This document shows, piece by piece, positions 17,829 to 40,241 of a stretch of 64,000 bases of DNA. The first letter of the stretch is position 1. The number at the start of each line of letters is the position of its first letter. The stretch is from positions 62,001 through 126,000 of the forward strand of contig JAPLBY010000011.1 of assembly GCA_026392515.1 (NCBI GenBank), given 5' to 3'. Origin of the DNA: Actinomycetota bacterium. GTDB lineage: Bacteria > Actinomycetota > Actinomycetes > S36-B12 > UBA5976. A program made the position numbers and the translations under genes. The notes under the pieces were generated by a model. The model was not told the origin of the DNA and did no database searches. It was given only the letters and a program-made list of their open reading frames with translations.

Positions 17829-17863
17829 ACTGGCCTCAATTCCTTATGTCTAGCAGGACAAGA

Positions 17864-20660: not shown

Positions 20661-21358
20661 CTCATTACATCCGCGCCAGAAATCACGATGGTTTCTCCAT
20701 CTACGAACCCAGCTTTAGTTGGATCGGAAAGCAACCACACCCACTCAGCAATTTCTGATGGCTGAGCTACGCGACCAACTGGAATTGATTTTGCAGCCTC
20801 TTCCATACGACCTGTTGCGGCATTGCCTGGTGTAGCTACCCAGCCAGGTGCGATTCCGTTAACGCGAATACCTTTTGGTGCCAGTTCAAGTGCAAGAGAT
20901 TTAGTGATCATGATGACTGCTGACTTTGAAGCGCCATATAGAAGTTGGCCGCGCGAAACTGTAAAACCATCAACCGATGCGAAATTAACTACTGCAGATC
21001 CAGGTTTCATGTGAGGAACACAGGCTGCAGTGACATTCAAGACCCCCAGCACATTTACATCAAAAATGAAGCGGAAGTTTTCTTCAGTAAATGTTTCAAG
21101 TGTTGTTGGTGGAAAAACACCCGCAACGTTTGCCACTGCATCGATGTTCCCACCAGCAGCTTTAATGGCTGAAGCTAAAGCGGTTTCGAGTGATTCTCGG
21201 TTTCGCACATCGGCCTTAACCCAATGCAAGTTTGCAGATTCAATTCCAGGGTTATCGGAAACATCGACGGCGATCACTTGCCAGTCCCGCTCGAGGTACA
21301 GCTCAGCGGTAGCTCGACCCATTCCACTGCCAGTACCTGTTATCACTGCAGTTCCCAT
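20657..21358 (-). CDS. Short-chain dehydrogenase/reductase (classical SDR), first gene of the FMO operon
   Basis: 233 aa. TGTGSGMGRATAE motif (8-20), NVAGVFPP, and the catalytic YGASKSAV. AGGAG sits 7 nt before the ATG at 21358. Its 3' end overlaps the GntR gene by 4 nt. The substrate is unknown. Confidence 0.88.
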   Translation of the reverse strand: MGTAVITGTGSGMGRATAELYLERDWQVIAVDVSDNPGIESANLHWVKADVRNRESLETALASAIKAAGGNIDAVANVAGVFPPTTLETFTEENFRFIFDVNVLGVLNVTAACVPHMKPGSAVVNFASVDGFTVSRGQLLYGASKSAVIMITKSLALELAPKGIRVNGIAPGWVATPGNAATGRMEEAAKSIPVGRVAQPSEIAEWVWLLSDPTKAGFVDGETIVISGADVMR

Positions 21359-21399: not shown

Positions 21400-21524
21400 A
21401 CGCAGACTCCGCTCGTGAGTCAAGGCCTTTCAGAAAATCTTTAGATCTGGCAGCCACCTCAACCAAACTGATTTATTCAGCCCAGTAAAGTGGGGTGAAA
21501 TATCCAGTTTCTAGTGAGGTAAAA

Positions 21525-22016
21525 ATGGCTGATTCCAGTATGGACATTGTGAGCAAAGTAGATCGTCAGGAAGCCGACAATGCCCTCGGCCAGGCTGCCA
21601 AAGAACTTGCTACTCGCTTTGACTTCAAAGGAACTGAAACCACTATTGAGTGGAAAGGTGAACTTGGTGTTGAGATTAGTTCCAGCACGGAAGATCGCGC
21701 CAAGGCTGCGCTCGAAGTTTTCCGGGAAAAACTAATCAAACGTGGCGTCAGCCTGAAGTCATTTAATGCTGGTGATCCCCGGGTATCTGGCAAAGATTAC
21801 AAAATTAATGGCGAGTTCAAGGCTGGTATCAGCCAAGAGCAGGCCAAGAAACTTGGCAAGATCATTCGCGATGAAGGCCCAAAGAACGTAAAGACTCAAG
21901 TTCAGGGTGAAGAACTTCGCGTGACTGGAAAGAGTCGAGATGATTTGCAAGCAGTCCAGCAGTTGCTGAGTGAATCTGATTTAGATTTCGCAGTTCAATA
22001 CACGAACTATCGCTAA
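21525..22016 (+). CDS. yajQ: YajQ family nucleotide-binding protein (UPF0234)
   Basis: 163 aa, family length. Starts [27 protein letters not shown] and contains RFDFKGTE and the C-terminal LQAVQQLL...[12 protein letters not shown] typical of YajQ. Homologues bind nucleotides or RNA, and one Xanthomonas member binds cyclic di-GMP; the role in Actinobacteria is not established. The ATG at 21525 has GTGAGG upstream. Its stop directly abuts the stop of the convergent NuoI-like gene. Confidence 0.94.
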
Positions 22017-22412
22017 TTATTTCTTTCGCCGGCCACTTGGTGGTTCGTCTATTTGTGGTGCCACTGACCCATCACTTCGTCTTGCACTAGGAAGCGATGC
22101 AGCTAGCGCCTCAATTCCATAAATCAGTTCGCCACGGCCTTGGCCAGCTGGCATTGGTGAGTCTGACCAGAACAGCGCATCAAATGGGCAAACGTCGATG
22201 CAAATACCGCACCACATACATTGACCAAAATCAATTGTGAACTGATCCAAAACATTCTTCGTTGCTTGTCTCCGGGAATTGCTATATGCCGGCGCATCTG
22301 GATCAGGTTCAGTGTGAGCTTGTACTGTGATGCACCAGTCTGGACATTCTCGAACACACAGCATGCAAGAAGTACATGAAGATGGATGTAACGCAATCGT
22401 TGAATGGTTCAT
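22017..22412 (-). CDS. NuoI-like 2x[4Fe-4S] ferredoxin subunit (second copy)
   Basis: 131 aa from the ATG at 22410-22412, which overlaps the previous stop by 4 nt. Two clusters: C13, C16, C19, C23 and C65, C68, C71, C75, equivalent to N6a/N6b of complex I. The tail is acidic then basic with no recognisable domain. The canonical nuoI is at 31239-31787. This copy ends a mini-operon with NuoB- and NuoC-like proteins, suggesting an electron-transfer module separate from the full complex. Confidence 0.85.
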   Translation of the reverse strand: MNHSTIALHPSSCTSCMLCVRECPDWCITVQAHTEPDPDAPAYSNSRRQATKNVLDQFTIDFGQCMWCGICIDVCPFDALFWSDSPMPAGQGRGELIYGIEALAASLPSARRSDGSVAPQIDEPPSGRRKK

Positions 22413-22858
22413 GATTTCCACTCCGGTAATACTCCTGGCGGAAGGGATGGTCGGCGCTTGGCATTTTCATCAGGTTCAACGGCTCCGGGCCATTCCGCTC
22501 CAGCTCTGGTAGCAAGCGCAAAATCTCGGCGAAGCGGATGACCAGAGAGTTCAATTTCAAAAGCTGGGGACTCGTCATTGTTTCCGTTGAACTTTACGCC
22601 AAACATTTGAGAAACTTCGCGTTCATGAAAACTAACGTTTGGAAAAACATCCACAAGTGAGTCAATCGCGGCATCAACATCTGTACTCAGAATTGTGCTC
22701 TCCGATAAGTCTTCCTTTGAAAGCATTAGCGAGATTTCGAAAGCATCTCCCCCATTGTGAGTTGCCGTTAACCACTCACATCTAACAAAACCACTTTGCT
22801 TTAGTTCAGCTGCTTCGCTTTGCCAATCAGAGTTTTCTACGATTTGAATTTGCGTCAT
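22409..22858 (-). CDS. NuoC-like subunit (second copy)
   Basis: 149 aa. The 30-kDa-subunit signature is clear in its second half: FHEREVSQMFGVKF and GHPLRRDF. It is shorter than the main NuoC (231 aa) and lacks an obvious NuoD partner nearby. It overlaps both neighbours by 4 nt. Confidence 0.82.
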   Translation of the reverse strand: MTQIQIVENSDWQSEAAELKQSGFVRCEWLTATHNGGDAFEISLMLSKEDLSESTILSTDVDAAIDSLVDVFPNVSFHEREVSQMFGVKFNGNNDESPAFEIELSGHPLRRDFALATRAGAEWPGAVEPDENAKRRPSLPPGVLPEWKS

Positions 22859-23238
22859 TTGCTTGCCAATTCCACTGCTTGCATAAGTGCCGCGGCTAAC
22901 TCTTCTGGTCCTGGTGGGCAGCCTGGGACTTGGATGTCTACTGGCACCAATTCATGCGCACCCGAGATAACGGAATAGGAATCCCAATACGGTCCGCCCG
23001 AAATTGCGCAAGCTCCAAAGGCAACTACTACTTTAGGTTCCTGCAAGGCATCATAAGCAGACTTAACCGTGGGAGCTAAAGCGTGCGTGACCGTTCCCGC
23101 AATAACCAAAATGTGTTCAGCCGCTGACAACTTTGATGCTGAAGTAGTTTGATCCCACGCGCTTGACACTAAATCCACTGAGCTTGATTCCACTCCGCAG
23201 CAAGCCAAACCGGCTTGTAACACTGAAAGATTGCTCAC
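22855..23238 (-). CDS. NuoB-like 20-kDa [4Fe-4S] subunit (second copy)
   Basis: 127 aa. All four N2-type ligands are kept: C13-C14 (GLACCG), C77 (GACAISGG) and C107 (GCPPGPE). It is much shorter than the canonical NuoB encoded at 39292-39846 (184 aa). It could belong to a second complex-I-like or hydrogenase-related assembly; no NuoD/large-subunit gene or membrane subunit is next to it. Confidence 0.83.
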   Translation of the reverse strand: MSNLSVLQAGLACCGVESSSVDLVSSAWDQTTSASKLSAAEHILVIAGTVTHALAPTVKSAYDALQEPKVVVAFGACAISGGPYWDSYSVISGAHELVPVDIQVPGCPPGPEELAAALMQAVELASK

Positions 23239-23247
23239 AGTATGACT

Positions 23248-24180
23248 CTAGTCAGGATCTGGGACGAAAGACTTGCTGACATTTCGACGATTGCGTAAGG
23301 CATCAGTTGTGAGAATAACTAGAGCCACCCAAGTAATCACAAATCCAATCCAGCGAACTTGTGGCATTGCCTCTTGAGTCATCCAAACTCCAACAAAGAA
23401 TTGGATGGTTGGGCCAATGTATTGCAACATTCCAAGAGTTGTAAATGGCAATCGAGTGATCGCTACGCCAAATGCCAACAGTGGAATCGCGGTGAAAATT
23501 CCAGCGCTCGCCATCCAAAGTGTGTGATCGAGTCCATATTCCAAGAACGTATTGCCGCCATTAAATTGCAACCAGATTAAGTAGCCAATTGCCAATGGTG
23601 TCAGGATCAATGTCTCAATCATCAAACTTTCTAGAGATTGCACATTGGCCAGTTTCTTGACGTACCCATACATCGTAAAACTTGTCGAGAGGGATAATGC
23701 CACCCAAGGCACTACACCCATGGCAATAGTTATGAACATGACTGCAAATGCTGCAATGCCAATTGCTAACCACTGCATTGGACGAAGTTTTTCCTTAAAG
23801 AAAAAGACGCCGAGTGCCACGTTAAGTAGCGGGGTTATGTAGTAGCCAAGAGAGGAATCTAGAACGTGGCCATTCATACTTGCCCAGATAAATAGTCCCC
23901 AGTTAACTCCAATAAGTACTGAAGCAACGGCTAGTAACTTCATTTGCCGGGAGTTCTTTAGAACAACCTGTAATGATGCAATTCGCTTTTGGTAAAGCAA
24001 AATGATTGCTACGAATAAAAGGCTCCAAAGAATTCGATGAGCCAGAATTTCCAAAGGTTTTGCTGGTGCAAGATATGGCCAGTAAAGAATTACTGCGCCC
24101 CAGATTATGTAGGCAATAAAGCCATTCATCAGGCCAATGGAATGCTCGGAGCGCTTCTCTTTTTCAACCTGAATACTCAT
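23248..24180 (-). CDS. rarD: RarD-type EamA/DMT-superfamily permease
   Basis: 310 aa, about ten transmembrane helices. The N-terminal GLMNGFIAYIIWGAVILYWPYL and the repeat LGYYITPLLNVALGVFFFKEKLRPMQWLAIGIA are typical of RarD. Substrate unknown. It lies 9 nt upstream of the NuoB-like gene in the same direction, so probably co-transcribed. There is no clear Shine-Dalgarno; a TAGTTT hexamer ends 9 nt before the ATG. Confidence 0.88.
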   Translation of the reverse strand: MSIQVEKEKRSEHSIGLMNGFIAYIIWGAVILYWPYLAPAKPLEILAHRILWSLLFVAIILLYQKRIASLQVVLKNSRQMKLLAVASVLIGVNWGLFIWASMNGHVLDSSLGYYITPLLNVALGVFFFKEKLRPMQWLAIGIAAFAVMFITIAMGVVPWVALSLSTSFTMYGYVKKLANVQSLESLMIETLILTPLAIGYLIWLQFNGGNTFLEYGLDHTLWMASAGIFTAIPLLAFGVAITRLPFTTLGMLQYIGPTIQFFVGVWMTQEAMPQVRWIGFVITWVALVILTTDALRNRRNVSKSFVPDPD

Positions 24181-24228: not shown

Positions 24229-25206
24229 CTAAACCGTGCGGCAAGCCACGCTGTCGACAAGAGTTGCCATTGCAGTCTTTGCATCACAATCTGGCAGAGC
24301 CGTTAGTCGCTCGCGGGCGCGATCAGCCCATTGCTCAAGAACTTCGCGAGCTTGATCCATAGCTGGGTGCACTCGCAACGCTGCTAGCGCCTCAGCATGT
24401 TCGGCGTCATCAGTGATGGCTCGGCTTAGCAATTCGCACAATCGCGGAGGTGTATCTGGATCCGCAAGGGCAAACAGCACTGGCAAAGTACGAATGCCTT
24501 CGCGCAAATCGGTTCCTGGGGTCTTGCCAGAAACTTCAGACTCAATATCTAGTAAGTCATCGCTTAACTGGAAAGCGATACCGATGCTCTCACCGAAGTC
24601 TGCAATTCGATCTGTTAGTTCAGCAGAGACACCACTCATCATTGCGCCATATCTTCCAGCAGCTGCGATCAGCGAACCAGTTTTATCTGCCAGCACTTCT
24701 AAGTGGTGAACAATTGGATCTTCGTCACCCTGCGGTCCAACGCTTTCCCGAAGTTGCCCGATAACAAGTCTTTCAAAAGTTTCAGCTTGAACCCGAACCG
24801 CATCTGGTCCTAAATCAGCGAGCAACTTTGAGGATCGCGCGAACAAAAAGTCACCACTTAGAATCGCAACAGTATTTCCCCATCGGCTATTTGCAGACTG
24901 TGTGCCACGGCGAACCTCGGCTTCATCCATCACATCATCGTGATACAAGGTTGCTAAGTGAGTAAGTTCCACAACGACAGCCGAAGGAACCACGCCTTCA
25001 GATTTAGGATCTCCAAAGTGTGATGCCAAAAGAACAAGCAATGGACGGAATCTCTTGCCACCAGCTTCAACTAAATGGCGCGCTGTGATGTCAGCAAGTT
25101 CATAGTCACTTCGGATTTCTTCCCGGAGGCGATCTTCAATCGCAGCAAGCCCAGCAAACATCTCTTCTTCGAGTGCTGCTAACTCTTCAGGGAATAAAAC
25201 GCTCAC
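24229..25206 (-). CDS. Polyprenyl diphosphate synthase (menaquinone side chain)
   Basis: 325 aa trans-isoprenyl diphosphate synthase. First aspartate-rich motif region YHDDVMDEAEVRRG, second motif QLSDDLLDIESE, plus GGKRFRPLL. Long-chain (hepta- to nona-prenyl) type by similarity to GrcC/HepB; chain length cannot be read directly. Starts at GTG (25206) behind AAGGA. It directly follows nuoN, tying the quinone tail to the quinone-reducing complex; ring enzymes are encoded downstream at 40-53 kb. Confidence 0.9.
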   Translation of the reverse strand: MSVLFPEELAALEEEMFAGLAAIEDRLREEIRSDYELADITARHLVEAGGKRFRPLLVLLASHFGDPKSEGVVPSAVVVELTHLATLYHDDVMDEAEVRRGTQSANSRWGNTVAILSGDFLFARSSKLLADLGPDAVRVQAETFERLVIGQLRESVGPQGDEDPIVHHLEVLADKTGSLIAAAGRYGAMMSGVSAELTDRIADFGESIGIAFQLSDDLLDIESEVSGKTPGTDLREGIRTLPVLFALADPDTPPRLCELLSRAITDDAEHAEALAALRVHPAMDQAREVLEQWADRARERLTALPDCDAKTAMATLVDSVACRTV

Positions 25207-25249: not shown

Positions 25250-26818
25250 CTAGCGAATGAACAATCCTGCATTGATTACCAAATCAAGTACTGGTTGTGG
25301 AGCGATTCCGAGTAACAAGGTGAATGCTGCACTGGTGCCAATGGCTACTGTCGTGAATGCACTTGGCACAACGACGCTTGGTCCATCAACTGGAGGTTCG
25401 GTAAAGAACATAAGGACTATGACTCGGGCGTAGAAGAACGCTGCGATTGCGCTGGCAACTACCGCAACTATTACTAGCGGAGTTGCGCCGCCATCAATAG
25501 CTGCTGTGAACACTGCGAACTTTCCAGTGAAGCCACTTGTCAGCGGGATACCAGCTAAAGCCAATAGGAATAGCGCAAAAATACTTGCCATCCACGGAGA
25601 TTTCTTACCAAGCCCAGCCCATTGCGACAAGTGTGTTGCTTCACCGGAAGCGTCACGCACTAATCCAACGATTGCAAAGACACCAACTGATGTGAAGCCG
25701 TAAGCGAGTAAGTAGAACAAAGTGCTAGAAAGTCCAGCAGCGCTTGTTGAAATTACGCCAAGCAAAATGAAGCCAGTATGTGCAACGGAAGAGAATGCCA
25801 GCATGCGCTTCATGTCAGTTTGAGTCACCGCAAGCAATGAACCAATAACCATTGAAAGGATCGCGATTACCCACATCATTGGGCGCCAATCCCAGCGCAT
25901 TCCACCGAAGGCTACGTAGAAGACGCGAAGCAATGCACCAAACGCGGCAACCTTAGTTGCTGCACTCATGAATGCAGTAAGTGGAGTTGGCGAACCTTGG
26001 TAAACATCTGGAACCCACTGGTGGAACGGTACCGCTCCAACCTTAAAGAGCAATCCAACTGCGATCATTCCAATACCTGGAATGATCAAACCATCTTGTG
26101 ATGAGTTCTCCATTGCTACGGCAACAGTGCTGAAGCTAATTGAAGTTGTCGCAGCATAAATTAGTGCGGCGCCGAATAGGAAAAATGCGCTGGAGAATGC
26201 GCCAAGAATGAAGTACTTGAGTGCTGCTTCGTGACTTAGAAGTCGGCGGCGGCGAGCCATACTGGCCATCAAGTAAAGCGGCAACGAGAAAACTTCTAGT
26301 GCTACGAACATAGTCAGGAAATCATTTGAAACTGGGAACAGCAGCATTCCACCAACACAGAATAAATACAGTGGCCAGATTTCAGTTTGTAGCCATCCTT
26401 GCGCGGTGAACTGTCGTTCATCTTCGCTACCAGGAAGTGTGGATGAGCGAGATGCAAAAGCATCTCCTTGCGGATCAATTTGTCGTTCTGCAAGCAGTAA
26501 TGCAGCTACAAATGAAACCAGCAGGATAATTCCCTGAAGCACCATGCCAGGACCATCAATTGCAACTGCGCCACTTGCTGCCAACTGACGCAATCCCTTT
26601 ACTTGGCCACCGTTGGTTACCGGATCGCCAGCAAGTGGCGCAGTGGCATTGATAACGACATAAGCAAATGCCAACACAATGCTGGCTAGCACCAACATAA
26701 GTTGGATCGGACGACGTAATGTGCGAGGAATAAATGCTTCAACCAGGACAGATAGAACTCCAGATGCAAGCAAGATAATGATTGGAGCTAGCGCTTGATA
26801 CTCAACAGAGACCTTCAT
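25250..26818 (-). CDS. nuoN: NADH-quinone oxidoreductase subunit N
   Basis: 522 aa antiporter-like proton-translocating membrane subunit with about 14 helices; KVGAVPFHQWVPDVYQGSPTPLTAFMSAATKVAAFGALLR contains the helix-7/8 lysines and the broken-helix region. Last nuo gene; its start overlaps the nuoM stop by 4 nt. Confidence 0.96.
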   Translation of the reverse strand: MKVSVEYQALAPIIILLASGVLSVLVEAFIPRTLRRPIQLMLVLASIVLAFAYVVINATAPLAGDPVTNGGQVKGLRQLAASGAVAIDGPGMVLQGIILLVSFVAALLLAERQIDPQGDAFASRSSTLPGSEDERQFTAQGWLQTEIWPLYLFCVGGMLLFPVSNDFLTMFVALEVFSLPLYLMASMARRRRLLSHEAALKYFILGAFSSAFFLFGAALIYAATTSISFSTVAVAMENSSQDGLIIPGIGMIAVGLLFKVGAVPFHQWVPDVYQGSPTPLTAFMSAATKVAAFGALLRVFYVAFGGMRWDWRPMMWVIAILSMVIGSLLAVTQTDMKRMLAFSSVAHTGFILLGVISTSAAGLSSTLFYLLAYGFTSVGVFAIVGLVRDASGEATHLSQWAGLGKKSPWMASIFALFLLALAGIPLTSGFTGKFAVFTAAIDGGATPLVIVAVVASAIAAFFYARVIVLMFFTEPPVDGPSVVVPSAFTTVAIGTSAAFTLLLGIAPQPVLDLVINAGLFIR

Positions 26819-28341
26819 GAGCCACTCCCTTCAATTACAACTGTGGCTTCTGGATCAGTTACACCCACATATGTTTGAACTTGTTCAACGGCCGGGTTAA
26901 TGACGTTAAGAGCAACCTGCGGTACGAAGCCTAAAGCAATAATTATTGCTATCAGCGGTGCAACAGCAACTAGTTCGCGTCTTGAGATCTCGGTAATGCT
27001 CTCTTCGACTTCCTTACTTGGAACTCCAGTCATCATTCTTTGGTAGAGCCAAAGGATGTAAACGGCTGCTAAGACAATTCCGAAGGTCGCAATGATCGCT
27101 GCTGTTGGATTAACTGCATATGCACCCGTCAGTACTAAGAATTCTGAGACGAAGGTAGACATGCCAGGAAGTGCAAGTCCTGAAAGTCCTGAAAGCAGGA
27201 ATACGCCAGCAAGAATTGGTGCAACCTTTTGGACGCCACCAAAGTCTGCAATTCGCTTTGAGCCGCGACGCGATACCAGGTAGCCCATGACTAAGAACAA
27301 CGCACCAGTGGAGAAACCGTGGTTGACCATGTAGAACGAAGATCCACTTAGTCCCTGTGAAGTCATCACAAAGATGCCTAAAACGATGAAGCCAAAGTGC
27401 GAGATCGAAGTAAATGCCACAAGACGCATCACATCTGTTTGTCCAATGGCCAAAAGTGCGCCGTAGAAAATACTGATTACAGCAAGCGTGATGATTGCCG
27501 GAGCATAAAACTTACTCGCTTCTGGGAAAATCGGAAGCAAGAAGTGCAGCATGGCAAAAGTTCCAACCTTATCGAGCACGCCAACTAGCAAAGTTGATGT
27601 TGCTGGTGTTGCTTCAGCTGCCGCATCTGGCAGCCAGGTATGGAAAGGCACCATAGGCGCCTTTACTGCGAAGGCAAAGAAGAATCCAAGAAAAAGCATT
27701 TTCTGCGTTGCTGGATCAATGTTTAAAGTCGTTAGAGTTTGGAAATCGAAAGTTCCCTGCCCAAGTTGACGGCTTGATACAACATAAAGGCCAATTAGCG
27801 CAGCCAGCATGAATAAGCCACCGACAAGTGAATACAGCAAGAATTTCATTGCCGCATAAGCACGTTGCGGGCCACCAAATCTTCCAATTAAAAAGTAGAT
27901 CGGAAACAGCATTGCTTCGAAGAAGACATAAAAGAGAAATAAATCATTAGCGGCAAATACGCCAATGATGAAAACTTCTAAGACAAGAATTAAGGAAAAG
28001 TAGCCCTTAACCGATCCCTGACTTGCATTTTCAGCATCCCACCAGCCAGCAATGATTGCTATCGGTACCAAAATTGCAGACATCACAATAAGTGAAGCTG
28101 AGATTCCATTCACGCCCAGAGTCCAAGAGATTCCAAAAGCTGGAATCCAATCGTAGGACTCAACGTGCTGCAGTCCCCCAGATGAATTATCTAGGCCAAG
28201 CACCATAAGAACGGACCCAACCAAAGTGGCGAGCGCAAAACCTAAGGCAATTTGCTTAGCTAAAGTCGCTTTCGCAGCTGGAAGCAAGAAAACAACAATC
28301 GACCCAACTAGTGGGATCAGCATCAAAGTCGTTAGCAACAT
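26815..28341 (-). CDS. nuoM: NADH-quinone oxidoreductase subunit M
   Basis: 508 aa antiporter-like subunit. FFEAMLFPIYFLIGRFGG carries the TM5 glutamate and AVKAPMVPFHTWLPDAAAEATPATSTLLVGVLDKVGTF the TM7/TM8 lysines of the proton channel. It starts 2 nt after the nuoL stop. Confidence 0.97.
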   Translation of the reverse strand: MLLTTLMLIPLVGSIVVFLLPAAKATLAKQIALGFALATLVGSVLMVLGLDNSSGGLQHVESYDWIPAFGISWTLGVNGISASLIVMSAILVPIAIIAGWWDAENASQGSVKGYFSLILVLEVFIIGVFAANDLFLFYVFFEAMLFPIYFLIGRFGGPQRAYAAMKFLLYSLVGGLFMLAALIGLYVVSSRQLGQGTFDFQTLTTLNIDPATQKMLFLGFFFAFAVKAPMVPFHTWLPDAAAEATPATSTLLVGVLDKVGTFAMLHFLLPIFPEASKFYAPAIITLAVISIFYGALLAIGQTDVMRLVAFTSISHFGFIVLGIFVMTSQGLSGSSFYMVNHGFSTGALFLVMGYLVSRRGSKRIADFGGVQKVAPILAGVFLLSGLSGLALPGMSTFVSEFLVLTGAYAVNPTAAIIATFGIVLAAVYILWLYQRMMTGVPSKEVEESITEISRRELVAVAPLIAIIIALGFVPQVALNVINPAVEQVQTYVGVTDPEATVVIEGSGS

Positions 28342-28343
28342 GA

Positions 28344-30203
28344 TTAAAGCCTCACTAGTAGAAGTATGAGCGCAATCAAAACTGCGCCACCGAGCATAGT
28401 TACTGCATAAGAACGTGCGTAACCATTCTGAAGTCGTTGAGCTCGAGCCGATAGGCCACCAATCGAAGCAGCAAGACCGCTTACTAAGCCATCAATCGCT
28501 TTGGAATCAAACCAGGTAAGTGAACGAGTCAAATACTGGCCAGGGCGCATGAACGCGGCTTCGTTTAGCGCATCGCCGTAAGCATCTGCTCTGGCCGCGC
28601 GAGTTAGGAAGCGAACATCTGTTGGTGCCACAACCGGAACTGGACGGCGACCGTATCGCAACCAAGCGAATAGCGCGCCACCAAGGACAACGGCAAGTGT
28701 GATTGGAATCAAAACTGAATGTGAAACTGAATGTTCTGGTTTCGCAAATCCAGTCACAGGCTCTAGCCAGTGCTCGATGTCACCAACAAACAGCATCGCC
28801 ATACCACCAAAGACTGAACCCAGTGCTAACACAATCATTGGGATTGTCATTACGGCTGGAGACTCGTGCGGATGAACGTCGTCTTCCCAGCGAGCTTCAC
28901 CAAAGAATGTCATGGCCATCATGCGTGTCATGTAGAAGGCAGTAACACCAGCACCAAGCAAAGTTGCCAGACCAATTATCAAACTTTGGCTAAAGGCCAC
29001 ATAAATGATTTCATCTTTCGACCAGAATCCGGCAAAAGGCGGTACGCCAATAATCGCCAAGAAACCAAGACCAAATGTTGCGTACGTAATCTTCATCATG
29101 ATGCGCAGTGCGCCGTAGTGACGCATGTTCACATCGTCATGCATGCCATGCATAACTGATCCCGCACCAAGGAATAGTCCAGCCTTAAACATGCCGTGAG
29201 TAAGTAAGTGGAAGATTGCAAAGACATAGCCAACTGGGCCAAGTCCAGCAGCTAGAACCATGTAACCGATTTGGCTCATAGTCGAACCTGCTAGACCCTT
29301 CTTAATGTCATCTTTTGCAGTTCCGATGAATGCACCAAGTAGCAAGGTAATTGCACCGACAATTACTACTGCGGTTCGGGCAGTTTCGGAGAGATCAAAA
29401 ATGGCATGAGCTCTGACAATTAAATAGACACCGGCGGTAACCATAGTTGCCGCGTGAATCAGCGCGGAAACTGGAGTTGGACCCTCCATCGCATCAAGTA
29501 ACCAAGATTGCAGTGGGAACTGCGCACTCTTTCCACAGGCAGCCAAAAGTAACGCCAAGCCGATCCAAGTAATCGTGGATGGAGATCCTGATTCGGCCGC
29601 CGCATTAACGCCCTCAAAAGTTACGGTTCCAAATGTTACGAACATGAGAATGATCGCGAGTGACAGACCTACGTCACCAACGCGGTTTACGATAAACGCT
29701 TTCTTGCCAGCAGTAGCTGCACTTGGCTTTTGTTGGTAGAAGCTGATCAATAGGTAAGAGGCAAGGCCAACACCTTCCCAGCCCACGTAAAGCAAGAAAT
29801 AGTTGTCAGCAAGAACCAAAAGCAACATTGCTGCTACGAACAAATTCAAGTAAGCAAAGAAGCGACGGCGATTTGGGTCGTGCTCCATGTACCCAATCGA
29901 GTAAATGTGAATCAAAGTTCCAACGCCGGTGATCAAAAGCACGAACACGATCGACAACTGATCTAGGTGTAAGCCAAATGGAATTTGAAAGGCCCCAACC
30001 GCGATCCAATCGAATAAGTGTTGTCCGACTTCACGTTCTTCTTCTGACTTGCCAACCATTTGAATGAACAAGAATGCGCCAAGCAGGAATGAACCAGCAG
30101 ACATTGCAACAGCTAAGAAATGTCCCCAGGCGTTGGTTCGACGGCCCCCGAGCAAGAGCACTGTGGCGCCAACTAATGGCAGACCAATAAGAGCGGCAAT
30201 CAT
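28344..30203 (-). CDS. nuoL: NADH-quinone oxidoreductase subunit L
   Basis: 619 aa, the largest antiporter-like subunit. [16 protein letters not shown] contains the TM5 glutamate; [40 protein letters not shown] gives the TM7/TM8 lysine and histidines. The extended C-terminus forms the lateral helix along the membrane arm. Confidence 0.97.
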
Positions 30204-30214
30204 GTTCAGTTCCT

Positions 30215-30514
30215 TTAGTACTTCATCAGACTTGCTTCGTCGATCGAGGCTGATCGACGAGTTCGGAAAATTGTCACGATAATTGCAAGTCCAACTACAA
30301 CTTCAGCTGCTGCAACAACCATTACAAAGAAAGCAACTACGAGTCCATCAAGTGTTCCGGTATTGCGGGCTGCGGCAACGAAAGCAAGATTTGCAGCGTT
30401 GAGCATTAGTTCAACGCTCATGAAAACGATGATCGCATTTCTGCGAACCAGCACACCATAAACTCCGATGGTAAAGAGAATGGCAGCAAGAATTAAGTAG
30501 TTATTTGGATTCAC
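30215..30514 (-). CDS. nuoK: NADH-quinone oxidoreductase subunit K
   Basis: 99 aa, three transmembrane helices. [17 protein letters not shown] contains the conserved membrane glutamate. It overlaps nuoJ by 4 nt. Confidence 0.96.
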
Positions 30515-31239
30515 TTGCCTGCCTCCTCAATTGAGTTCGGCTTGGCAACTTTGCCTTCACCGCGGAATGCATTTGGAAGGGAATCAATTGAAGTTGATCC
30601 GTCAGGCAACAATGCTGGGGTATCAACCGAGTTGTTTCTGGCCATTACACCTGGTGCTGGCAGCGGAGTTACGTGGTTACCCATAGTGCGTTCGCGCTGC
30701 AATTGATCCTGAGTCTTTCGAGGTGCCCATCGTTCGTTGTGAGCAAGAACCATTGCGCCAAGTGCTGCCGTAATAAGTAGTGCCGACAAAACTTCAAATG
30801 CAAATAGGTATTGTCCAAACACCAAATAAGCAATAGCTTTCAAGTGGCCACCATAGCCAGCATTAGCAATTGCTAGTCCTGCTGAAGGTGAGGCGAGCGT
30901 GCTGGCAATGGATGCCACAACCACACCACCAAAAGTTAAAGCAAACAACGCAGCTAGCAGTCTTTGACCTTTGATAGTTTCCAAAAGTGAATCAGATGAA
31001 TCCACACCAACAATCATCAGTACGAAAAGGAACAGCATCATGACTGCACCGGTGTAAACGATGATCTGGGTGGTTCCTAGGAATGGTGCTTCAAGTGTGA
31101 AGTAAAGAACTGCAATGTTAATCATTGCAAAGGCAACCCAAAGTGCACTGTGCACGGCTTTCTTGGAAACAACCATGCCAAGTGCACCAACAACAGCGAA
31201 CGTACCCGAGACCCAAAAAACTACGCTCTCACCATTCAC
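30511..31239 (-). CDS. nuoJ: NADH-quinone oxidoreductase subunit J
   Basis: 242 aa; five hydrophobic segments including the conserved [24 protein letters not shown] (TM3 with the pi-bulge). The C-terminal 70 residues are hydrophilic and proline-rich, an actinobacterial extension compared with the shorter E. coli subunit. The start overlaps the nuoI stop by 1 nt. Confidence 0.95.
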
Positions 31240-31787
31240 TATTCGTCACCTACTTTTACGGCACTTGGTGTTGGGCTGCTGCCAACTTTGCCTTCGTAGT
31301 AATCGATTGCAGTTGTACCTGGAGCCATGTCGTGAGGTGGAAGTTCCATTCCAGCCAAAAGCGGGGCAAGTAGATCTTCTTTTGTGAAAATCAGTTTCTC
31401 GCGACTGTCATCGGCTAATTCATATTCATTTGTCATGGTTAGCGCTCTAGTTGGGCATGCCTCAATGCATAAACCACAAAGAATGCAGCGTAAGTAATTG
31501 ATTTGATAAGTCCGGCCGTAACGCTCTCCTGGTGAGAAACGTTCTTCTTCAGTGTTGTCCGCACCTTCAACATAAATGGCGTCTGCCGGGCAAGCCCAAG
31601 CACACAACTCACAGCCAATGCATTTTTCTAAACCGTCTGGATGTCGGTTTAGCTGGTGACGACCATGGAAGCGAGGCTTTGGTGGATACTTATCCTTCTC
31701 TTCCGGGTACTGCTCTGTTGTCACCTTCTTGAACATCGATAAGAAAGTGACTCCGAATCCACGGATAACTTGTGGAACTTTAGACAT
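31239..31787 (-). CDS. nuoI: NADH-quinone oxidoreductase subunit I
   Basis: 182 aa, two [4Fe-4S] clusters: [12 protein letters not shown] and [12 protein letters not shown] (N6a, N6b). Passes electrons to NuoB. It overlaps nuoH by 8 nt. Compare the shorter second copy at 22017-22412. Confidence 0.97.
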
Positions 31788-33123
31788 TGGTGCCCTCCGT
31801 GGTTTCCGTTACGACCTGAGATGCAACGGAACCGCTTGAAATCGTTACCTTTGCGTGGCGTGATGGCTGAGCAACTTGACCTGGCATTGGTGGCACCGGG
31901 AATCCGCCAGCAAAAGGATCGAAGTCTTGCTCGGCTTCTAACGCAGCTCGTTGCTCTTCAACTTCGTCAGATTTCTTGCGTCGTAAATCAAGTGTGTATG
32001 AAATCAAAACAATCAGGATTAGCACTGCACTTGCCGCAAACAGCAAGTTACGTGACTCTAAGCCACCGGTGTTGCGCAAGTAGCGAGCGATTGCAACGAT
32101 CAAGATCCAAGCAATCGATACTGGAATCAAAACTTTCCAACCAAACTTCATGAATTGGTCATAACGCAAGCGAGGTAGCGTTCCGCGTAGCCAGATGAAT
32201 ACGAAGATGAATGCAAAAACCTTGCCGAAGAACCAAAGCATTGGCCACCAACCGACATTGGCTTGATCCCATAGCGAGATTGGCCACGGTGCGCGCCAAC
32301 CGCCAAGGAACAAAGTCGTGGCAAGTGCCGAAACAGTAACCATGTTTACGTACTCAGCCAAGAAGAACAATGCGAACTTTAGAGATGAATATTCAGTATG
32401 GAAGCCACCAACAAGTTCGCCTTCAGCTTCTGGCAAGTCAAATGGTGCACGGTTAGTTTCGCCAACCATTGCAGTTGTGTAGATGATGAAAGACGGAAGT
32501 AGTAGCACGATGTACCACATTGGCTCTTGCGCTGCGACAATCTGCGAAGTCGACATTGACTCGGCATAAAGGAATACCGCAACAAAGGAAAGTCCCATTG
32601 CAATTTCGTAGCTGATCATCTGGGCTGAAGAACGAAGTCCGCCAAGTAGCGGGTAGATCGAGCCTGAAGACCAACCAGCAAGCACGGTTCCGTAAATTCC
32701 AACGGATGCAATTGCCAATACATATAGAACAGAAACTGGGAAGTCGGTCAGTTGAAGCGGAGTCACTGTGCCAAAAATCGAAACTTCAGGACCCAGTGGG
32801 ATTACGGCAAATGTTAAGAATGCTGTGGTGGCTGCGATAACTGGCGCTATTACATAAACCGCTAAGTGTGCACCCTTTGGAATGATTTCTTCCTTAAGGG
32901 CTAACTTAATTCCGTCCATCAATGACTGAAGTAAACCAAATGGTCCGACTCGGTTTGGCCCGATACGCATTTGCATGCGGCCAACAACACGACGCTCTGC
33001 CCAAATAGTAAGCAGAGTCATGACGACCATGATTACGAAAATTCCTAGAACCTTTACCGCAATAACTGCAGCTGGATCATTTCCAAAGATACTTAGATCA
33101 CCTTGAGCTTGGGAGCGAAACAT
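31780..33123 (-). CDS. nuoH: NADH-quinone oxidoreductase subunit H
   Basis: 447 aa membrane subunit forming the quinone entry site. [35 protein letters not shown] and the FFLAEYVNM loop are canonical. A hydrophilic C-terminal extension of about 70 residues is typical of Actinobacteria. The TAATG overlap with nuoG couples the two. Confidence 0.97.
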
Positions 33124-35339
33124 TAGTTACCTCCCTTTGCAACGTCAACAACACAGCCAGATGACAAGTTCAAAGAACTTCCCTCGCTATTTGCAGGCAA
33201 CCAGACAACGTCATCGGACATTCCAGCAGTGACAATCAGTGGTGCACTGGCAGTATTGCCACAGCAACTTACAGTCGCAGTTGCGCCATCAACTAAGTTC
33301 AGCTTTTGTGCAGTTGATGGGCTAACTCGAACTACTGCAACTCTGGCAGTTGCCGCTAGGTATGGTTCGCCGCTTTGCAATGAACCCTTGTCGAGTAGGT
33401 GGCGCCAAGTCGAAAGCACTGCTTGTCCATTTCCAACAGTTTCAGTGGAAGCAGAATCTGCCTTAAGTGCAGGCTTAGTTGCAGTGGCCCAGAAAGCGGA
33501 AACTGAAAGTGACTTTCCAAGTTCGCGAGCTAACTCGCCAAGAACATCAGCATCACTTAGTGCGCCTGGAGTTGGAATGACCGCACCAAAGCTTCGGTCG
33601 CGACCTTCCCAGTTACGGAAAGTTCCGGCTTTTTCAGTTACAACTGCAACTGGCAAAACTACATCTGCTTCGGCAGTTACATCTGTGTGGCGAGTCTCAA
33701 GCGAAACTACGAACTGCGCTTTTTCGATTGCAGACATTAGGTCGCCATCAACATCTTCAGGCGAAACGCCACCTACTACTAGTCCCTTAATTGCAGATCC
33801 AGTAGCAGCAACAATTTCAGAAGTGTTGCGACCGTCGATTGGAAGTAAGCCAGCGTCAAGCGCGCCGCGATCTCCTGCACGACGTGGGATCCAAGCCAAC
33901 TTCGCACCGGTTTTGGAAACAAGTTCAGCAACTGCTGTTAGTGCGCCCGGAGTTTGGGCGGCACGTTCGCCCACCAAAATCACGCTGTCACCTGAAAGAT
34001 GGGTTGCCGCGGAAGCAATTACCGATACTTCTTCGCGTGGACCTGCAGTTAGTAAAGTCCCCTTCATCTTTGCAAGACCAGCACTTGTGTAAGGCGCAAC
34101 TGAGTAAACCTTTGTTGTACCGCTTAAGGCTGCTTTGCGAAGACGCAAGAAAACAATTGGTGATTCATCTTCTGGTTCAAACGAAACCAGAAGCACACTC
34201 TTCGCAGCTTCTAAGTCTCCGTAAGTTACCTCAAGACCCTTGTTGGCTACATGATTTGCCAGGAATGCAGTCTCTTCGTTACTTACTGCGCGAGCACGGA
34301 AATCAACATCGTTTGTACCAAGGACTTCTCTGGCAAACGAAGCGTAAGCATGCGCATCTTCAACGGTCACTCGCCCACCGGTCAATACTGCAGTTGCTTT
34401 TCCAGCATTTGCTAATCCAGCAGCTGCGACTCGCAATGCCTCTGGCCATGAGGCTGGAACTAAGTTACCTGCATCGTCACGAACTAATGGATGAGTTAAG
34501 CGACCTTCGTTTGTGTATGGGAATGCGAATCGACCCTTGTCACAGTTCCACTCTTCGTTAACTTCAGGTGCATCCCAAGCTAGTCGACGCATAACTGTGC
34601 TGCGACGAACGTCAGTGCGCAGTGCGCATCCACTTGCGCAGTGTTCACATGCCGTTGGTGTGCTTACTAAATCAAATGGACGGGAGCGGAAACGATACTT
34701 TGCACTTGTTAATGCGCCAACTGGACAGATCTGAATTGTGTTTCCAGAGAAGTATGAATCAAACGGCTGATCTTCCGAGGTTCCAACTTGTTGCTTTGCA
34801 CCGCGTTCTAACAATTCAATGAACGGATCGCCAGCAATTTGGTCTGCGAAGCGAGTGCAACGCGCGCAAGATACGCAGCGCTCACGATCAAGCAGAACTT
34901 GAGCGCTTACATTGATTGGCTTTGGAAAAGTTCGCTTGGTGCCTTCGAATCTTGTTTCACCCTGACCATTTGTCATTGCCTGATTTTGCAGTGGGCATTC
35001 GCCGCCCTTGTCGCAAATTGGGCAATCAAGTGGGTGGTTGATTAGCAAAAATTCCATAACGCCGGCTTGAGCCTTTTCGGCCATTTCGCTGGTGTGCTGA
35101 GTTTTGATAACCATGCCTTCAGCAACTGTGACTGCACATGAAGGTTGTGGCTTACCTTGTCCTTCAATTTCAACCAGACACATTCGACAAGCTGCAACTG
35201 GATCTAAAAGTGGGTGGTCACAGAAACGCGGAATTGCAGTACCAAGCATTTCGGCAACGCGAATGATTAATGTTCCCGCTGGTACTTCAACTACTACGCC
35301 ATCAACGGTGACGGTAACAGTTTGCGTAGTTACGGTCAT
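33123..35339 (-). CDS. nuoG: NADH-quinone oxidoreductase subunit G
   Basis: 738 aa. N-terminal [2Fe-2S] domain ([15 protein letters not shown]), the His/Cys N5 motif ([17 protein letters not shown]), N4 (CVSCARC) and the N7 motif CEHCASGC, then a degenerate molybdopterin-oxidoreductase fold. Presence of the N7 cysteines follows the actinobacterial and E. coli type. Confidence 0.96.
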
Positions 35340-36637
35340 CGAGTCGCTCCTGCAAATACTGTGGCGGCTACTGGATCAAAGCTTTCGTTAGCTGGCGTAT
35401 TTGTCGCTTGCACAAATTCATCGCGGAAGTACTTAAGTGCTGCTGGGAATGGTGTTGCGGCAGCATCACCAAGAGCGCAGAAGGAACGGCCAGCAATCTG
35501 TGAGCAAATGTCGATCAACTTATCTAGATCAGATTCGGTGCCATGACCATCTTCGAATCGATGGAGAACATCACTTAACCACCAAGTGCCTTCCCGACAT
35601 GGTGTGCACTTGCCACATGATTCGTGCTTGTAGAAAGCCAACCATCCAGTAACGGCGCGAACCACAGAAGTTGTGTCATCGAAAATCATTGGAGTTCCAG
35701 TGCCAAGCATGGAACCAGCTGCAGCAATGTCTTCGTAAGTTAACGGAGTATCAAGTAAATCTGGAGTCAGCATTGGAACTGATGATCCGCCTGGTAACCA
35801 GAACTTAACTTTGTGACCGTCGCGAACTCCCCCAGCATGCTCAAGAAGCTCACGCATGGTGATTCCAAGTGGAGCTTCGTAAATTCCTGGACGATTTACG
35901 TGACCAGAAACTGCGAACAACTTGAAGCCTGGTGACTTTTCAGTTCCAAATGACTTGAACCAATCAACACCGTTGTTAACGATGTATGGAATGTTTGCAA
36001 TTGTCTCAACGTTATTTACGCAAGATGGTGAAGCATAAAGTCCAGCGACTGCAGGAAACGGTGGCTTCAAACGTGGCTGACCGCGACGACCTTCAAGGGA
36101 ATCCAGTAGCGCAGTTTCTTCACCACAAATGTAGGCACCGGCACCAGCGTGCAAAACAACTTCAAGATCAAATCCAGATCCCATGATGTTCTTACCAAGG
36201 TATCCCGCAGCATAAGCTTCGCGAATCGCGTTATTAACCCGACGGAAAACGTGTGGAACTTCGCCACGAATGTAAATGAATGCGTGGTTAGCGCGCATTG
36301 CGTATGAAGCAATGATGATGCCTTCGATTAATGAATGCGGGTTAGCCATCATTAATGGAATGTCTTTGCAAGCACCTGGTTCAGACTCATCGGCGTTGAT
36401 AACTAAGTAATGCGGTTTGCCATCGCCTTGTGGAACAAAGCTCCACTTAAGGCCAGTTGGGAATCCAGCACCACCACGACCACGTAGGCCTGAATCTTTA
36501 ACCATCGAAATGATGTCATCTGGGCCAGTTGCGAACGCCTTCTTGAATGCGGTGTAACCGCCGTGGCGCATGTAGCCCGTAATTTTGTAGGAATCAACTT
36601 CATCCCAATGTGCACTGAGTACCGGAGTTAATGTCAT
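35336..36637 (-). CDS. nuoF: NADH-quinone oxidoreductase subunit F
   Basis: 433 aa NADH- and FMN-binding subunit. GRGGAGFPTGLKW forms the NADH site, GAGAYICGEETALLDSLEG binds FMN, and ESCGKCTPCREGTWW ligates N3. It overlaps nuoG and nuoE by 4 nt each. Confidence 0.98.
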   Translation of the reverse strand: MTLTPVLSAHWDEVDSYKITGYMRHGGYTAFKKAFATGPDDIISMVKDSGLRGRGGAGFPTGLKWSFVPQGDGKPHYLVINADESEPGACKDIPLMMANPHSLIEGIIIASYAMRANHAFIYIRGEVPHVFRRVNNAIREAYAAGYLGKNIMGSGFDLEVVLHAGAGAYICGEETALLDSLEGRRGQPRLKPPFPAVAGLYASPSCVNNVETIANIPYIVNNGVDWFKSFGTEKSPGFKLFAVSGHVNRPGIYEAPLGITMRELLEHAGGVRDGHKVKFWLPGGSSVPMLTPDLLDTPLTYEDIAAAGSMLGTGTPMIFDDTTSVVRAVTGWLAFYKHESCGKCTPCREGTWWLSDVLHRFEDGHGTESDLDKLIDICSQIAGRSFCALGDAAATPFPAALKYFRDEFVQATNTPANESFDPVAATVFAGATR

Positions 36638-37281
36638 TTCTTTACTCCTGGTGCAGTTTGGCCAAGTTCTTTAGCGCGATTCAATCCGGCAAGCATTTGC
36701 TCATCGGCCTGGACGCCTTCATCAACTAAGCCATCATCGAAGCCAGCCAAAGTTAATTCGTTTTCCTTAAAGGTACGAATCTTTGGCCCACGGGTGCTGA
36801 TAACTTCTTTGCCGCTGGCAAGTTTTTCAACTACATCAATTGCAGATTCTGGTGTCATGTTGTCCAAGAATTCCCAGTTCGCAGTCATAACTGGTGCGTG
36901 CGTGCAAGCAGCCTGACATTCAATCCGCTCAAGTGAGATTTTTCCATCTGGAGTTACTTCGTCATGGCCGATACCAAGTCGAGAACTTAGCTTCTCCCAA
37001 ATTGCATCGCCACCGAGAATGCCACAGCCTGGGTTGATGCATACGCCGATGTGATATTCACCAGCTGGCTTGCGGTGATACATGGTGTAGAAAGTTGCCA
37101 CTGCAGCAACTTCAGCTGTAGTTAGGGAAAGTTCATCAGCACATAAAGCAATACCGTCTGCACTTACGTAGCCTTCTTCAGACTGAACTAAGTGCAACAT
37201 TGGCAAAAGTGCAGATCTTGCCTGCGGGTAACGCGAAATGATTTCGCGCGCTTGTACTCGAGTTGATTCAGATAGTGACAT
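36634..37281 (-). CDS. nuoE: NADH-quinone oxidoreductase subunit E
   Basis: 215 aa. [2Fe-2S] N1a ligands in VCINPGCGILGG and ECQAACTHAPVM. The C-terminus extends about 40 residues beyond the shortest bacterial forms. It abuts nuoD with a 1-nt overlap. Confidence 0.97.
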   Translation of the reverse strand: MSLSESTRVQAREIISRYPQARSALLPMLHLVQSEEGYVSADGIALCADELSLTTAEVAAVATFYTMYHRKPAGEYHIGVCINPGCGILGGDAIWEKLSSRLGIGHDEVTPDGKISLERIECQAACTHAPVMTANWEFLDNMTPESAIDVVEKLASGKEVISTRGPKIRTFKENELTLAGFDDGLVDEGVQADEQMLAGLNRAKELGQTAPGVKK

Positions 37282-38600
37282 TAACGATCAACGCCTCCCA
37301 TAACTGGATCAATCGATGCAACTGCAGCAATTACATCTGCAATTTGTCCGCCTTCACACATTGCGGCAACGGCTTGAAGATTTGTAAATGACGGATCGCG
37401 GTAATGAACTCGGTATGGACGAGTGCCGCCATCGGACACAATGTGAACGCCAAGTTCGCCACGTGGTGATTCAACTGCGCTGTAAACCTGACCGGCTGGA
37501 ACTTGGAAGCCTTCAGTAACTAACTTGAAGTGGTGGATTAAAGCTTCCATCGACTCGCCCATGATGTGGCGAATGTGATCTAGCGAGTTTCCTTGACCAT
37601 CAGAACCAATAGATAACTGAGCTGGCCAAGCAATCTTCTTGTCTTCAACCATGACTGGTCCTGGCTGCAAGCGATCAAGACACTGTTCAACAATGTTTAG
37701 TGACTGTTCCATTTCAGTTAAGCGAATCAAGAAGCGACCATAAGCATCTGAAGTGGTCTGAGTCATGACATCGAATTCGTAATTCTCGTATCCGCTGTAT
37801 GGCGATGTCTTGCGAAGGTCTTCAGGTAGACCAGTTGCGCGAAGCACTGGGCCAGTAACACCAAGAGCCATGCAACCAGCAAGATCAAGTTTGCCGATGC
37901 CCTGAGTTCGAGCTAACCAAATTGAGTTGTCGACCAACATGTCAGCGGTATCTTTCATGCGACGAGGTAGCGCCATGATTGTGTCGCGGATTTGCTGCTC
38001 AGCACCAGCTGGCAAATCTTGTGCCACACCACCTGGTCGGATGTAAGCACTATTCATACGTAAGCCGGTTACAAGTTCAAATAAGTCAAGAACTGATTCG
38101 CGCTCGCGGAATCCGAAAATCATTGCGGTAAGTGCGCCAAGTTCCATACCGCCTGTTGCAAGCGCAACTAAGTGGGAAGAAACACGGTTAAGTTCCATCA
38201 TCATTACGCGAATGATTTGTGCGCGTTCTGGAATCTGATCAGTAATACCTAGGAGTTTTTCAACGCCTAAGCAGTATGCAGTCTCATTGAAGAATGGTGA
38301 CAAGTAATCCATACGAGTAACGAAAGTTACGCCCTGGGTCCAAGTGCGGTATTCAAGATTCTTTTCGATACCGGTATGTAGGTAGCCGATTCCACAACGA
38401 GCTTCAGTTACGGATTCGCCTTCAAGTTCCAAAATCAAACGCAATACGCCGTGAGTTGAAGGGTGCTGTGGACCCATGTTTACAACAATGCGTTCGTATT
38501 CGCCTTCGGCAGCACCAAGAACTGAATCCCAGTCTTGACCCATAACGGTATGGACGCGACCTTCAGTTGTTTCGTAATTAGGTGAGTAAGTATCAGACAT
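37281..38600 (-). CDS. nuoD: NADH-quinone oxidoreductase subunit D
   Basis: 439 aa 49-kDa subunit related to the hydrogenase large subunit. [22 protein letters not shown] contains the quinone-site His-Pro-Ser-Thr-His motif, and the C-terminal VMGGVDR is the usual end. It is the only NuoD-type gene in the window. Confidence 0.98.
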
Positions 38601-39295
38601 TAGCTGTAAGACCTCCGAACATCTGGAGGTGGAATAGTTGCGCCCTTGTATTCAACTGGAACGCCACCAAGTGGATAGTCCTTGCGCTGGGGATGACCTT
38701 GCCAATCGTCCGGCATCATGATGCGGATTAAGTGTGGATGACCATCAAAAATAATTCCAAAGAAGTCATATGCTTCGCGTTCATGCCAGTCGTTGGTTGG
38801 GTAAACCGACATGATCGAAGGAATGTGTGGATTGGCATCTGCAACGGAAACTTCAAGTCGAATTCGGCGATTGTGGGTTATCGAACGGAAATGGTAAACC
38901 GCGTGTAACTCACGATCTTTATATTCTGGGTAGTGAACGCCGCTAACTCCAAGGCATAGTTCAAAGCGCAGACCTGGTTCATCGCGAAGAGTTTTTGCTA
39001 TCGCAACTAATTCACTCGGGCGAACATGAAGCGTTAGCTCATCATGATCTACAACTACTTTTTCAATTGCCTTATCCCAAGATGAATCAAAATCTGGCAG
39101 TGCTGCAATCAATTCGTCAGCAAGTACATCAAAGTAACTTCCGTACGGGCGTTCAGATGGAGCTGGAACCGGTACCACAATTGCAAGTCCGCCAAAGCCC
39201 GATGTATCACCAGAGCCAGAAGCGCCAAACATTCCTTGGCTAGCGCTTGTAACTTCGAGCAACGGCTGACCGTTGTGTACTACTTCATTGCTCAT
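38600..39295 (-). CDS. nuoC: NADH-quinone oxidoreductase subunit C
   Basis: 231 aa. [29 protein letters not shown] and [12 protein letters not shown] are the 30-kDa signature. The N-terminal 55 residues are glycine/serine-rich and likely flexible. The start overlaps the nuoB stop by 4 nt. Confidence 0.96.
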
Positions 39296-39846
39296 CGCAG
39301 TAAACCTCGCTGCGCGGTTACTGGCGTTGCAAGTAGTGCTTCTTTTTCAAGTTCAACAATTTCACGTTTGCGGTTTGAGCCCAGTTTGGTATCACCGATT
39401 TGTTCGTGAAGTTTTAGTAAGGCATCGATAAGCATTTCTGGGCGAGGTGGACAGCCTGGCAAGTAAATATCAACTGGTACAACGTGGTCAACACCTTGCA
39501 CGATTGCATAGTTATTGAACATGCCACCTGAGGATGCACAGGCACCCATAGCAAGCACCCACTTAGGCTCTGGCATTTGATCGTAAATCTGACGAAGTAC
39601 CGGAGCCATTTTTTGGCTAACGCGACCAGCCACGATCATCAAGTCAGCTTGGCGAGGTGAAGCGCGGAAAACTTCCATTCCAAAGCGCGCTAAGTCATAT
39701 CGTCCTGCACCAGACGCCATCATTTCAATAGCACAGCAGGCAAGACCAAATGTTGCTGGCCATAGAGAGTTCTTGCGGGCATAGCCAGCTAAGCCTTCAA
39801 CAGTGGTCAGTAAAACACCACTTGGCAGTTTCTCTTCTAGTCCCAT
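39292..39846 (-). CDS. nuoB: NADH-quinone oxidoreductase subunit B
   Basis: 184 aa. N2 cluster ligands in [21 protein letters not shown] context, GACASSGG and GCPPRPE. Electron donor to menaquinone at the NuoB/NuoD interface. Confidence 0.98.
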
Positions 39847-39872
39847 TTTTTTCCTCTAACCTCTAGAAATTC

Positions 39873-40241
39873 TTAATCCCACTCAAGTCCACCACGACGC
39901 CAAACAAATGCGTACGCAACTAGAACTGTGAGAATGAAAATGATCATTTCAATTAATCCAAACAAACCAAGCGCATCGAAGGTAACTGCCCATGGGTATA
40001 GAAAAACTATTTCGATGTCAAAAATAATGAAGAGCATTGCAGTTACGTAGTACTTGACTGGGAAGCGTCCGCCACCAAGCTGGGCTTGAGCTGGCTGGAT
40101 TCCACATTCGTACGCATCGACTTTGGCGCGGTTGTATCTTTTTGGTCCGGTAAACGAAGCAGCAGCAACAGAGAAGACAGCAAAACCAAATGCCAAAAGA
40201 CCTAAGAAGAAAATGGGTAGGTACACATTTCCCTGTCCCAC
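39873..40241 (-). CDS. nuoA: NADH-quinone oxidoreductase subunit A
   Basis: 122 aa, three transmembrane helices; KVDAYECGIQP holds the conserved loop cysteine and glutamate. Starts at GTG (40239-40241) with AAAGGTGG upstream. First of fourteen nuo genes in canonical order A-N. The 5' region carries a Rex-type operator. Confidence 0.96.
   Translation of the reverse strand: MGQGNVYLPIFFLGLLAFGFAVFSVAAASFTGPKRYNRAKVDAYECGIQPAQAQLGGGRFPVKYYVTAMLFIIFDIEIVFLYPWAVTFDALGLFGLIEMIIFILTVLVAYAFVWRRGGLEWD

Follow-up and report, generated by a model that had tools for sequence, protein, structure and literature searches.

Three short genes beside the canonical complex I operon of an Actinomycetota bacterium form a well-supported remnant of Nuo2, a complex I relative of the 11-subunit type without the NADH module. 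The remnant comprises genes for NuoB-, NuoC- and NuoI-type subunits (B′, C′ and I′) in the window, the 64,000-nucleotide stretch of DNA that was analysed, and a gene for a NuoD-type subunit (D′) on another contig of the same genome. Loss of the membrane subunits of Nuo2 at least three times within the Actinomycetes is likewise well supported. A first-pass annotation of the window had rated the three genes its strongest candidate for an undescribed system. This does not apply to the parent Nuo2, which is already published for Streptomyces (PMC3765725, PMC9239103); the repeatedly evolved form that keeps B, C, D and I and lacks any membrane subunit was, however, not found described in the open-access literature.

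The mini-operon and its distant partner gene

The three genes lie on the minus strand. The first, B′ (22855..23238), encodes a NuoB-type subunit of 127 aa that carries the N2 [4Fe-4S] cluster; it is followed by C′ (22409..22858), encoding a NuoC (30 kDa)-type subunit of 149 aa, and I′ (22017..22421), encoding a NuoI-type subunit of 134 aa with two [4Fe-4S] clusters. All three open reading frames are intact, overlapping by 4 bases (B′/C′) and 13 bases (C′/I′), and their products match the Pfam families Oxidored_q6 (1.4e-23), Complex1_30kDa (7.4e-18) and Fer4 (2.1e-9), respectively, far above chance. None reaches the NCBIfam cut-off for NuoB, NuoC or NuoI, which marks them as divergent proteins. 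The N2 ligands of B′ (C13, C14, C77 and C107) and the two CxxCxxCxxxC sets of I′ (C16/19/22/26 and C68/71/74/78) are invariant across relatives. The earlier description of overlapping genes for short B, C and I subunits with all Fe-S ligands in place was thus correct, as was the remark that they are shorter than the canonical copies (184, 231 and 182 aa). The first cluster motif of I′ lies within the signature CTSCMLCVRECPxWCI, where an extra, fifth cysteine (C30, in CPxWC; 22332-22376, codons 16-30) is invariant in both I′ and the Nuo2-type I.

While C′ retains the HEREx..MFG signature, neither the amphipathic helix at the N-terminus nor the quinone-channel loop is present in B′, and I′ lacks the N-terminal membrane-anchoring helix of NuoI. 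The fold predicted for B′ in a single-chain model is that of NuoB (Foldseek E 1e-10).

The mini-operon is bounded, here and in relatives, by the convergent yajQ (21495..22016, plus strand), and rarD (23248..24180, minus) is conserved upstream. The rarD/B′ junction of 9 bases (23239..23247) is the site at which most relatives carry a divergent korB-korA pair, encoding a 2-oxoacid:ferredoxin oxidoreductase, which is absent here. A conserved polyprenyl diphosphate synthase gene (24229..25206, minus) separates rarD from nuoN of the canonical complex I operon nuoA-N (25250..40241, minus), which encodes a separate enzyme. The conservation of rarD-B-C-I synteny, proposed earlier as a check, was found with this modification: in most families of the order the block reads nuoN-pps-rarD-korBA<->B′C′I′-yajQ. 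The place between rarD and B′ that usually belongs to korAB is taken in one relative by an acyl-CoA dehydrogenase gene (L018 6690-7853). On the other side of the locus, genes for a flavin-containing monooxygenase-like protein, an SDR and a GntR regulator, together with two further ORFs (window 16605-21358), are conserved by yajQ in close relatives (L117, L121).

The first-pass annotation noted that no NuoD, NuoH or antiporter partner was nearby and built on the premise that a NuoD-type subunit was missing. This is accurate at the locus and, for NuoH and the antiporters, also genome-wide, but not for NuoD. The genome-wide search that it had called for showed that the canonical nuoD is accompanied by a second NuoD-type gene, D′ (390 aa). 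D′ lies on the minus strand of another contig (G000:C14:35040-36212 = L007:9541-10713), next to DUF2520-panC-coaX-lysS. In the 94% complete draft genome, neither a second NuoH nor a second antiporter set was found, the single NuoH and the three antiporters all being canonical, and a second membrane cluster elsewhere in the genome was rejected on this basis. The suggestion of a split second complex was therefore not far off: the NuoD-type gene that goes with the three is located elsewhere in the genome.

In the examined genomes of the class, D′ stands alone near panC, and the examined stretches around it contained no other genes of the B′C′I′/D′ set. It is 28% identical to canonical NuoD, and its single-chain model (pLDDT 89) has the predicted fold of NuoD, with a Foldseek E of 1e-21 to the 49 kDa subunit of mitochondrial complex I. 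The core HRGAEKLFE..RDYRQ..NRHDW and the C-terminal GDxDR are retained. Where NuoD has its quinone-binding Tyr (PMC8119997), a Trp is found in 85/85 Nuo2 D sequences, from full and stripped forms alike (that is, with and without the membrane subunits).

Though their genes are unlinked, I′ and D′ co-occur: among 317 Actinomycetes, both were present in 124 genomes, neither in 185 and only one in 8, counts that ignore kinship. Several of the 8 discordant genomes are incomplete assemblies. Within the order Nanopelagicales, D′ and B′ occur together in almost every member of the window's genus and across most of families f2, f3, f6 and f7, and are jointly missing from f4, f5 and several f1 genera. 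In f4, f5 and G004 (L286-L289: G004, G019, G020, G023), the corresponding locus carries korAB without B′ and D′, pointing to other KorAB acceptors there. Family f56, elsewhere in the phylum, has a second, weaker I′-like group (E about 1e-19), possibly another divergent NuoI set.

Nuo2 and the repeated loss of its membrane arm

Many other Actinomycetes carry, at the same locus, the arrangement korAB<->nuoA2-B2-C2-H2-I2-J2-K2-L2-M2-N2-htpX, with D near panC, while outside the class D lies inside the operon directly before H (...D-H-I-J-K...). These genes form a separate Nuo2 clade found across the phylum. The window genome shares with them the orthologous B, C and I at the nuoN-pps-rarD/kor/yajQ locus, a Nuo2-type NuoD at the panC locus typical of the class, and the Trp in place of the quinone-binding Tyr. 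The membrane subunits A, H and J-N are missing from it, as is the divergent korAB present in most relatives.

The Streptomyces nuo2 genes have been described as lacking NuoEFG, with a non-contiguous nuoD2 (PMC3765725), and their function has been called unclear (PMC9239103). Streptomyces Nuo2 (SCO4599-SCO4608; PMC3765725, PMC9239103) resembles the set described here in its orthologous B, C and I, its D set apart near panC and its lack of NuoEFG, and the locus is of the same type, with divergent korAB and HtpX/YajQ downstream. It keeps A, H and J-N, however, whereas B, C, I and the distant D are all that is left in the window genome, with membrane-facing parts trimmed and no korAB. In some full operons (L194, L291; G255, G438), about 4-5 kb of other genes lie between nuoH2 and nuoI2.

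When canonical NuoD is used to root the D trees, stripped forms branch from within the full form and at least three changes are required, although the branches of stripped D′ are long and may distort the topology. We also used a tree of KorAB only, replacing a concatenated species-proxy tree in which genomes without korAB shared no columns with korAB-only genomes. This tree rejected a single stripped clade (AU p=0.003) and required five changes. Transitional cases were found as well. One genome (G193) retains A, B, C and I together with a truncated nuoH2, and a single genus (g55) contains both a full form (G438) and a complete genome with B, C and I only at the locus (G315). As the trees alone are insufficient to give the direction of change, we rely on the truncated nuoH2 of G193, on the outgroup and on where the stripped form falls once the tree is rooted, which together indicate loss rather than gain.

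Membrane- or quinone-channel-facing parts of I′ and B′ and, to a lesser extent, D′ were lost along with the membrane arm. Nuo2-type NuoH is present in 12/12 full genomes and, apart from the G193 fragment, in 0/24 stripped ones. By motif search, the N-terminal amphipathic segment of I (…QYPD…PPRSRG) was detected in 28/29 full versus 2/41 stripped forms, and the quinone-channel loop of B, searched as a 21-letter motif, in 22/22 versus 1/40. The stripped genomes in which the I or B motif is still present are the recent cases G193 and G180. In D, the loop histidines (equivalents of His34 and His38) are retained in 27/27 full forms and in 36/40 and 35/40 stripped forms, respectively. The window genome's D′ reads APATHG at these positions, which have also drifted in some relatives.

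A plausible order of events would start from an 11-gene ancestor, followed by relocation of D to panC in the class, loss of the membrane genes and, in the window species, loss of korAB. In the window lineage, none of the seven membrane subunits of Nuo2 (A, H, J, K, L, M and N) has survived.

In the usual view, complex I arose when a soluble redox module was joined to a membrane pump. The reverse step, shedding the pump and keeping the soluble module, has apparently happened repeatedly in nature.

Selection, proposed function and alternatives

All four genes are under strong purifying selection. Within the window's genus, dN/dS (YN00) was 0.02-0.03 for I′, 0.05-0.07 for D′, 0.04-0.11 for B′ and 0.11-0.16 for C′, in comparisons in which dS was often high. 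As these values are low despite the loss of korAB, the set has a function that is independent of KorAB. KorAB as an obligate partner was rejected, since korAB is lost in the window species and in many relatives that keep B′ and D′ intact. The retention of the soluble module under such selection implies useful chemistry without quinone access or proton pumping; the window genome has neither the quinone channel nor the membrane arm of an 11-subunit complex I-like proton pump.

We consider it probable, with appreciable room for the other readings given below, that B′, C′, D′ and I′ form one soluble Fe-S complex that is fed by ferredoxin and reduces a non-membrane acceptor in the D′ pocket. Reduced ferredoxin would pass electrons to the two [4Fe-4S] clusters of I′; from there they would reach the N2-like cluster of B′ and finally the D′ pocket, where Trp takes the place of complex I's quinone Tyr and the non-membrane acceptor would be reduced. 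Ancestrally, ferredoxin may have been reduced by the divergently encoded KorAB (2-oxoglutarate:ferredoxin oxidoreductase). Solubility is suggested by the loss of every membrane subunit and anchor, and ferredoxin as donor by the absence of an NADH module together with the link to korAB in the ancestor. Gene content does not force this choice of donor, given that KorAB is absent here and present without B′ and D′ in f4 and f5. The soluble ferredoxin-linked relay mentioned in the first-pass annotation came close, the wider family being linked to a 2-oxoacid:ferredoxin oxidoreductase. More tentatively, and with slightly less than even confidence, complex I could have given rise several times, by shedding its entire proton-pumping arm, to a class of membrane-less enzymes represented by the stripped forms: a ferredoxin-dependent soluble B′C′D′I′ with a D′ pocket open to solvent, in which a soluble partner other than quinone is reduced or oxidised.

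Comparison with known systems places the set apart from each of them. The Desulfitobacterium enzyme (PMC11238625) likewise has Q-module subunits, no NADH module and ferredoxin or another donor, but it has a full membrane arm, of which there is none here, and the NuoD quinone-binding Tyr is here replaced by Trp. Canonical complex I (nuoA-N) has homologous B, C, D and I; in contrast to it, B′C′D′I′ form a separate clade with no N-module partner, no membrane arm and an unlinked D. The hydrophilic module of group 4 [NiFe] hydrogenases (Ech/Mbh type) is ferredoxin-linked and comprises counterparts of B, C, D and I, all four of them hydrophilic. Unlike in these hydrogenases, the NiFe cysteine motifs (CxxC), sought in the D′ sequence and alignment, are absent, and D′ groups with NuoD by sequence and fold; membership in group 4 was rejected for lack of the NiFe-site CxxC.

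An alternative that we regard as unlikely is that B′C′D′I′ docks on the membrane arm of the canonical complex I in place of NuoBCDI, with ferredoxin feeding the quinone pool. The canonical complex I is nearly always present, as judged by second NuoD hits of canonical type and by canonical NuoH in 24/24 stripped genomes, and its operon adjoins the mini-operon, in keeping with such an exchange. In complex I structures, however, the B and I segments matching those lost face NuoH/NuoA, which weakens the case for docking on the canonical arm: the B′ helix and loop that contact NuoH/NuoA and the N-terminal helix of I′ are lost where the Nuo2-type NuoH is lost. The Trp in place of the quinone-binding Tyr also speaks against it. 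A shade less likely still is a non-catalytic or regulatory module, acting as an Fe-S redox sensor, a scaffold, or an electron sink reserved for KorAB and other enzymes that use ferredoxin. Such a role would suit the divergent korAB linkage in most relatives and the dispensable membrane machinery, but no cluster ligand is missing, the D′ core next to the N2 site is preserved, and purifying selection is strong even after korAB loss.

Quinone chemistry may nevertheless remain, as the β1-β2 histidines and the HRGAEK...RDYRQ...NRHDW core of D′ mostly persist. That B′C′D′I′ is still a quinone reductase, held at the membrane by an unrelated, unrecognised anchor protein, appears improbable to us: retention of the His34/His38 equivalents in 36/40 and 35/40 stripped D′ favours it, but across the order no additional conserved gene was found at either the B′C′I′ or the D′ locus, and the loop-histidine positions have drifted in the window species and some relatives. 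Least credible by far is decay of duplicated canonical nuo genes. The proteins are indeed short and divergent, as decaying copies might be, yet they belong to a separate, phylum-wide clade, dN/dS is 0.02-0.16, and ORFs and synteny are intact in the relatives carrying the genes. A recent canonical paralogue was also rejected on the D tree, in which D′ does not cluster with the canonical copy of the same genome. Neither of the two outcomes named in the first-pass annotation as overturning its reading occurred: dN/dS gave no sign of degenerating duplicates, and no second membrane cluster was found in this genome.

The analysis also provides a framework for Streptomyces nuo2, which includes a C subunit and has its D encoded by the gene linked to panC; Trp stands at the quinone site and ferredoxin from KorAB is the likely donor. 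Full and stripped forms both occur in complete genomes, which opens the question to bench testing. In one complete genome of 3.2 Mb (G285, L250), we found a Nuo2-type D and H only, and Nuo2 is apparently the sole complex I.
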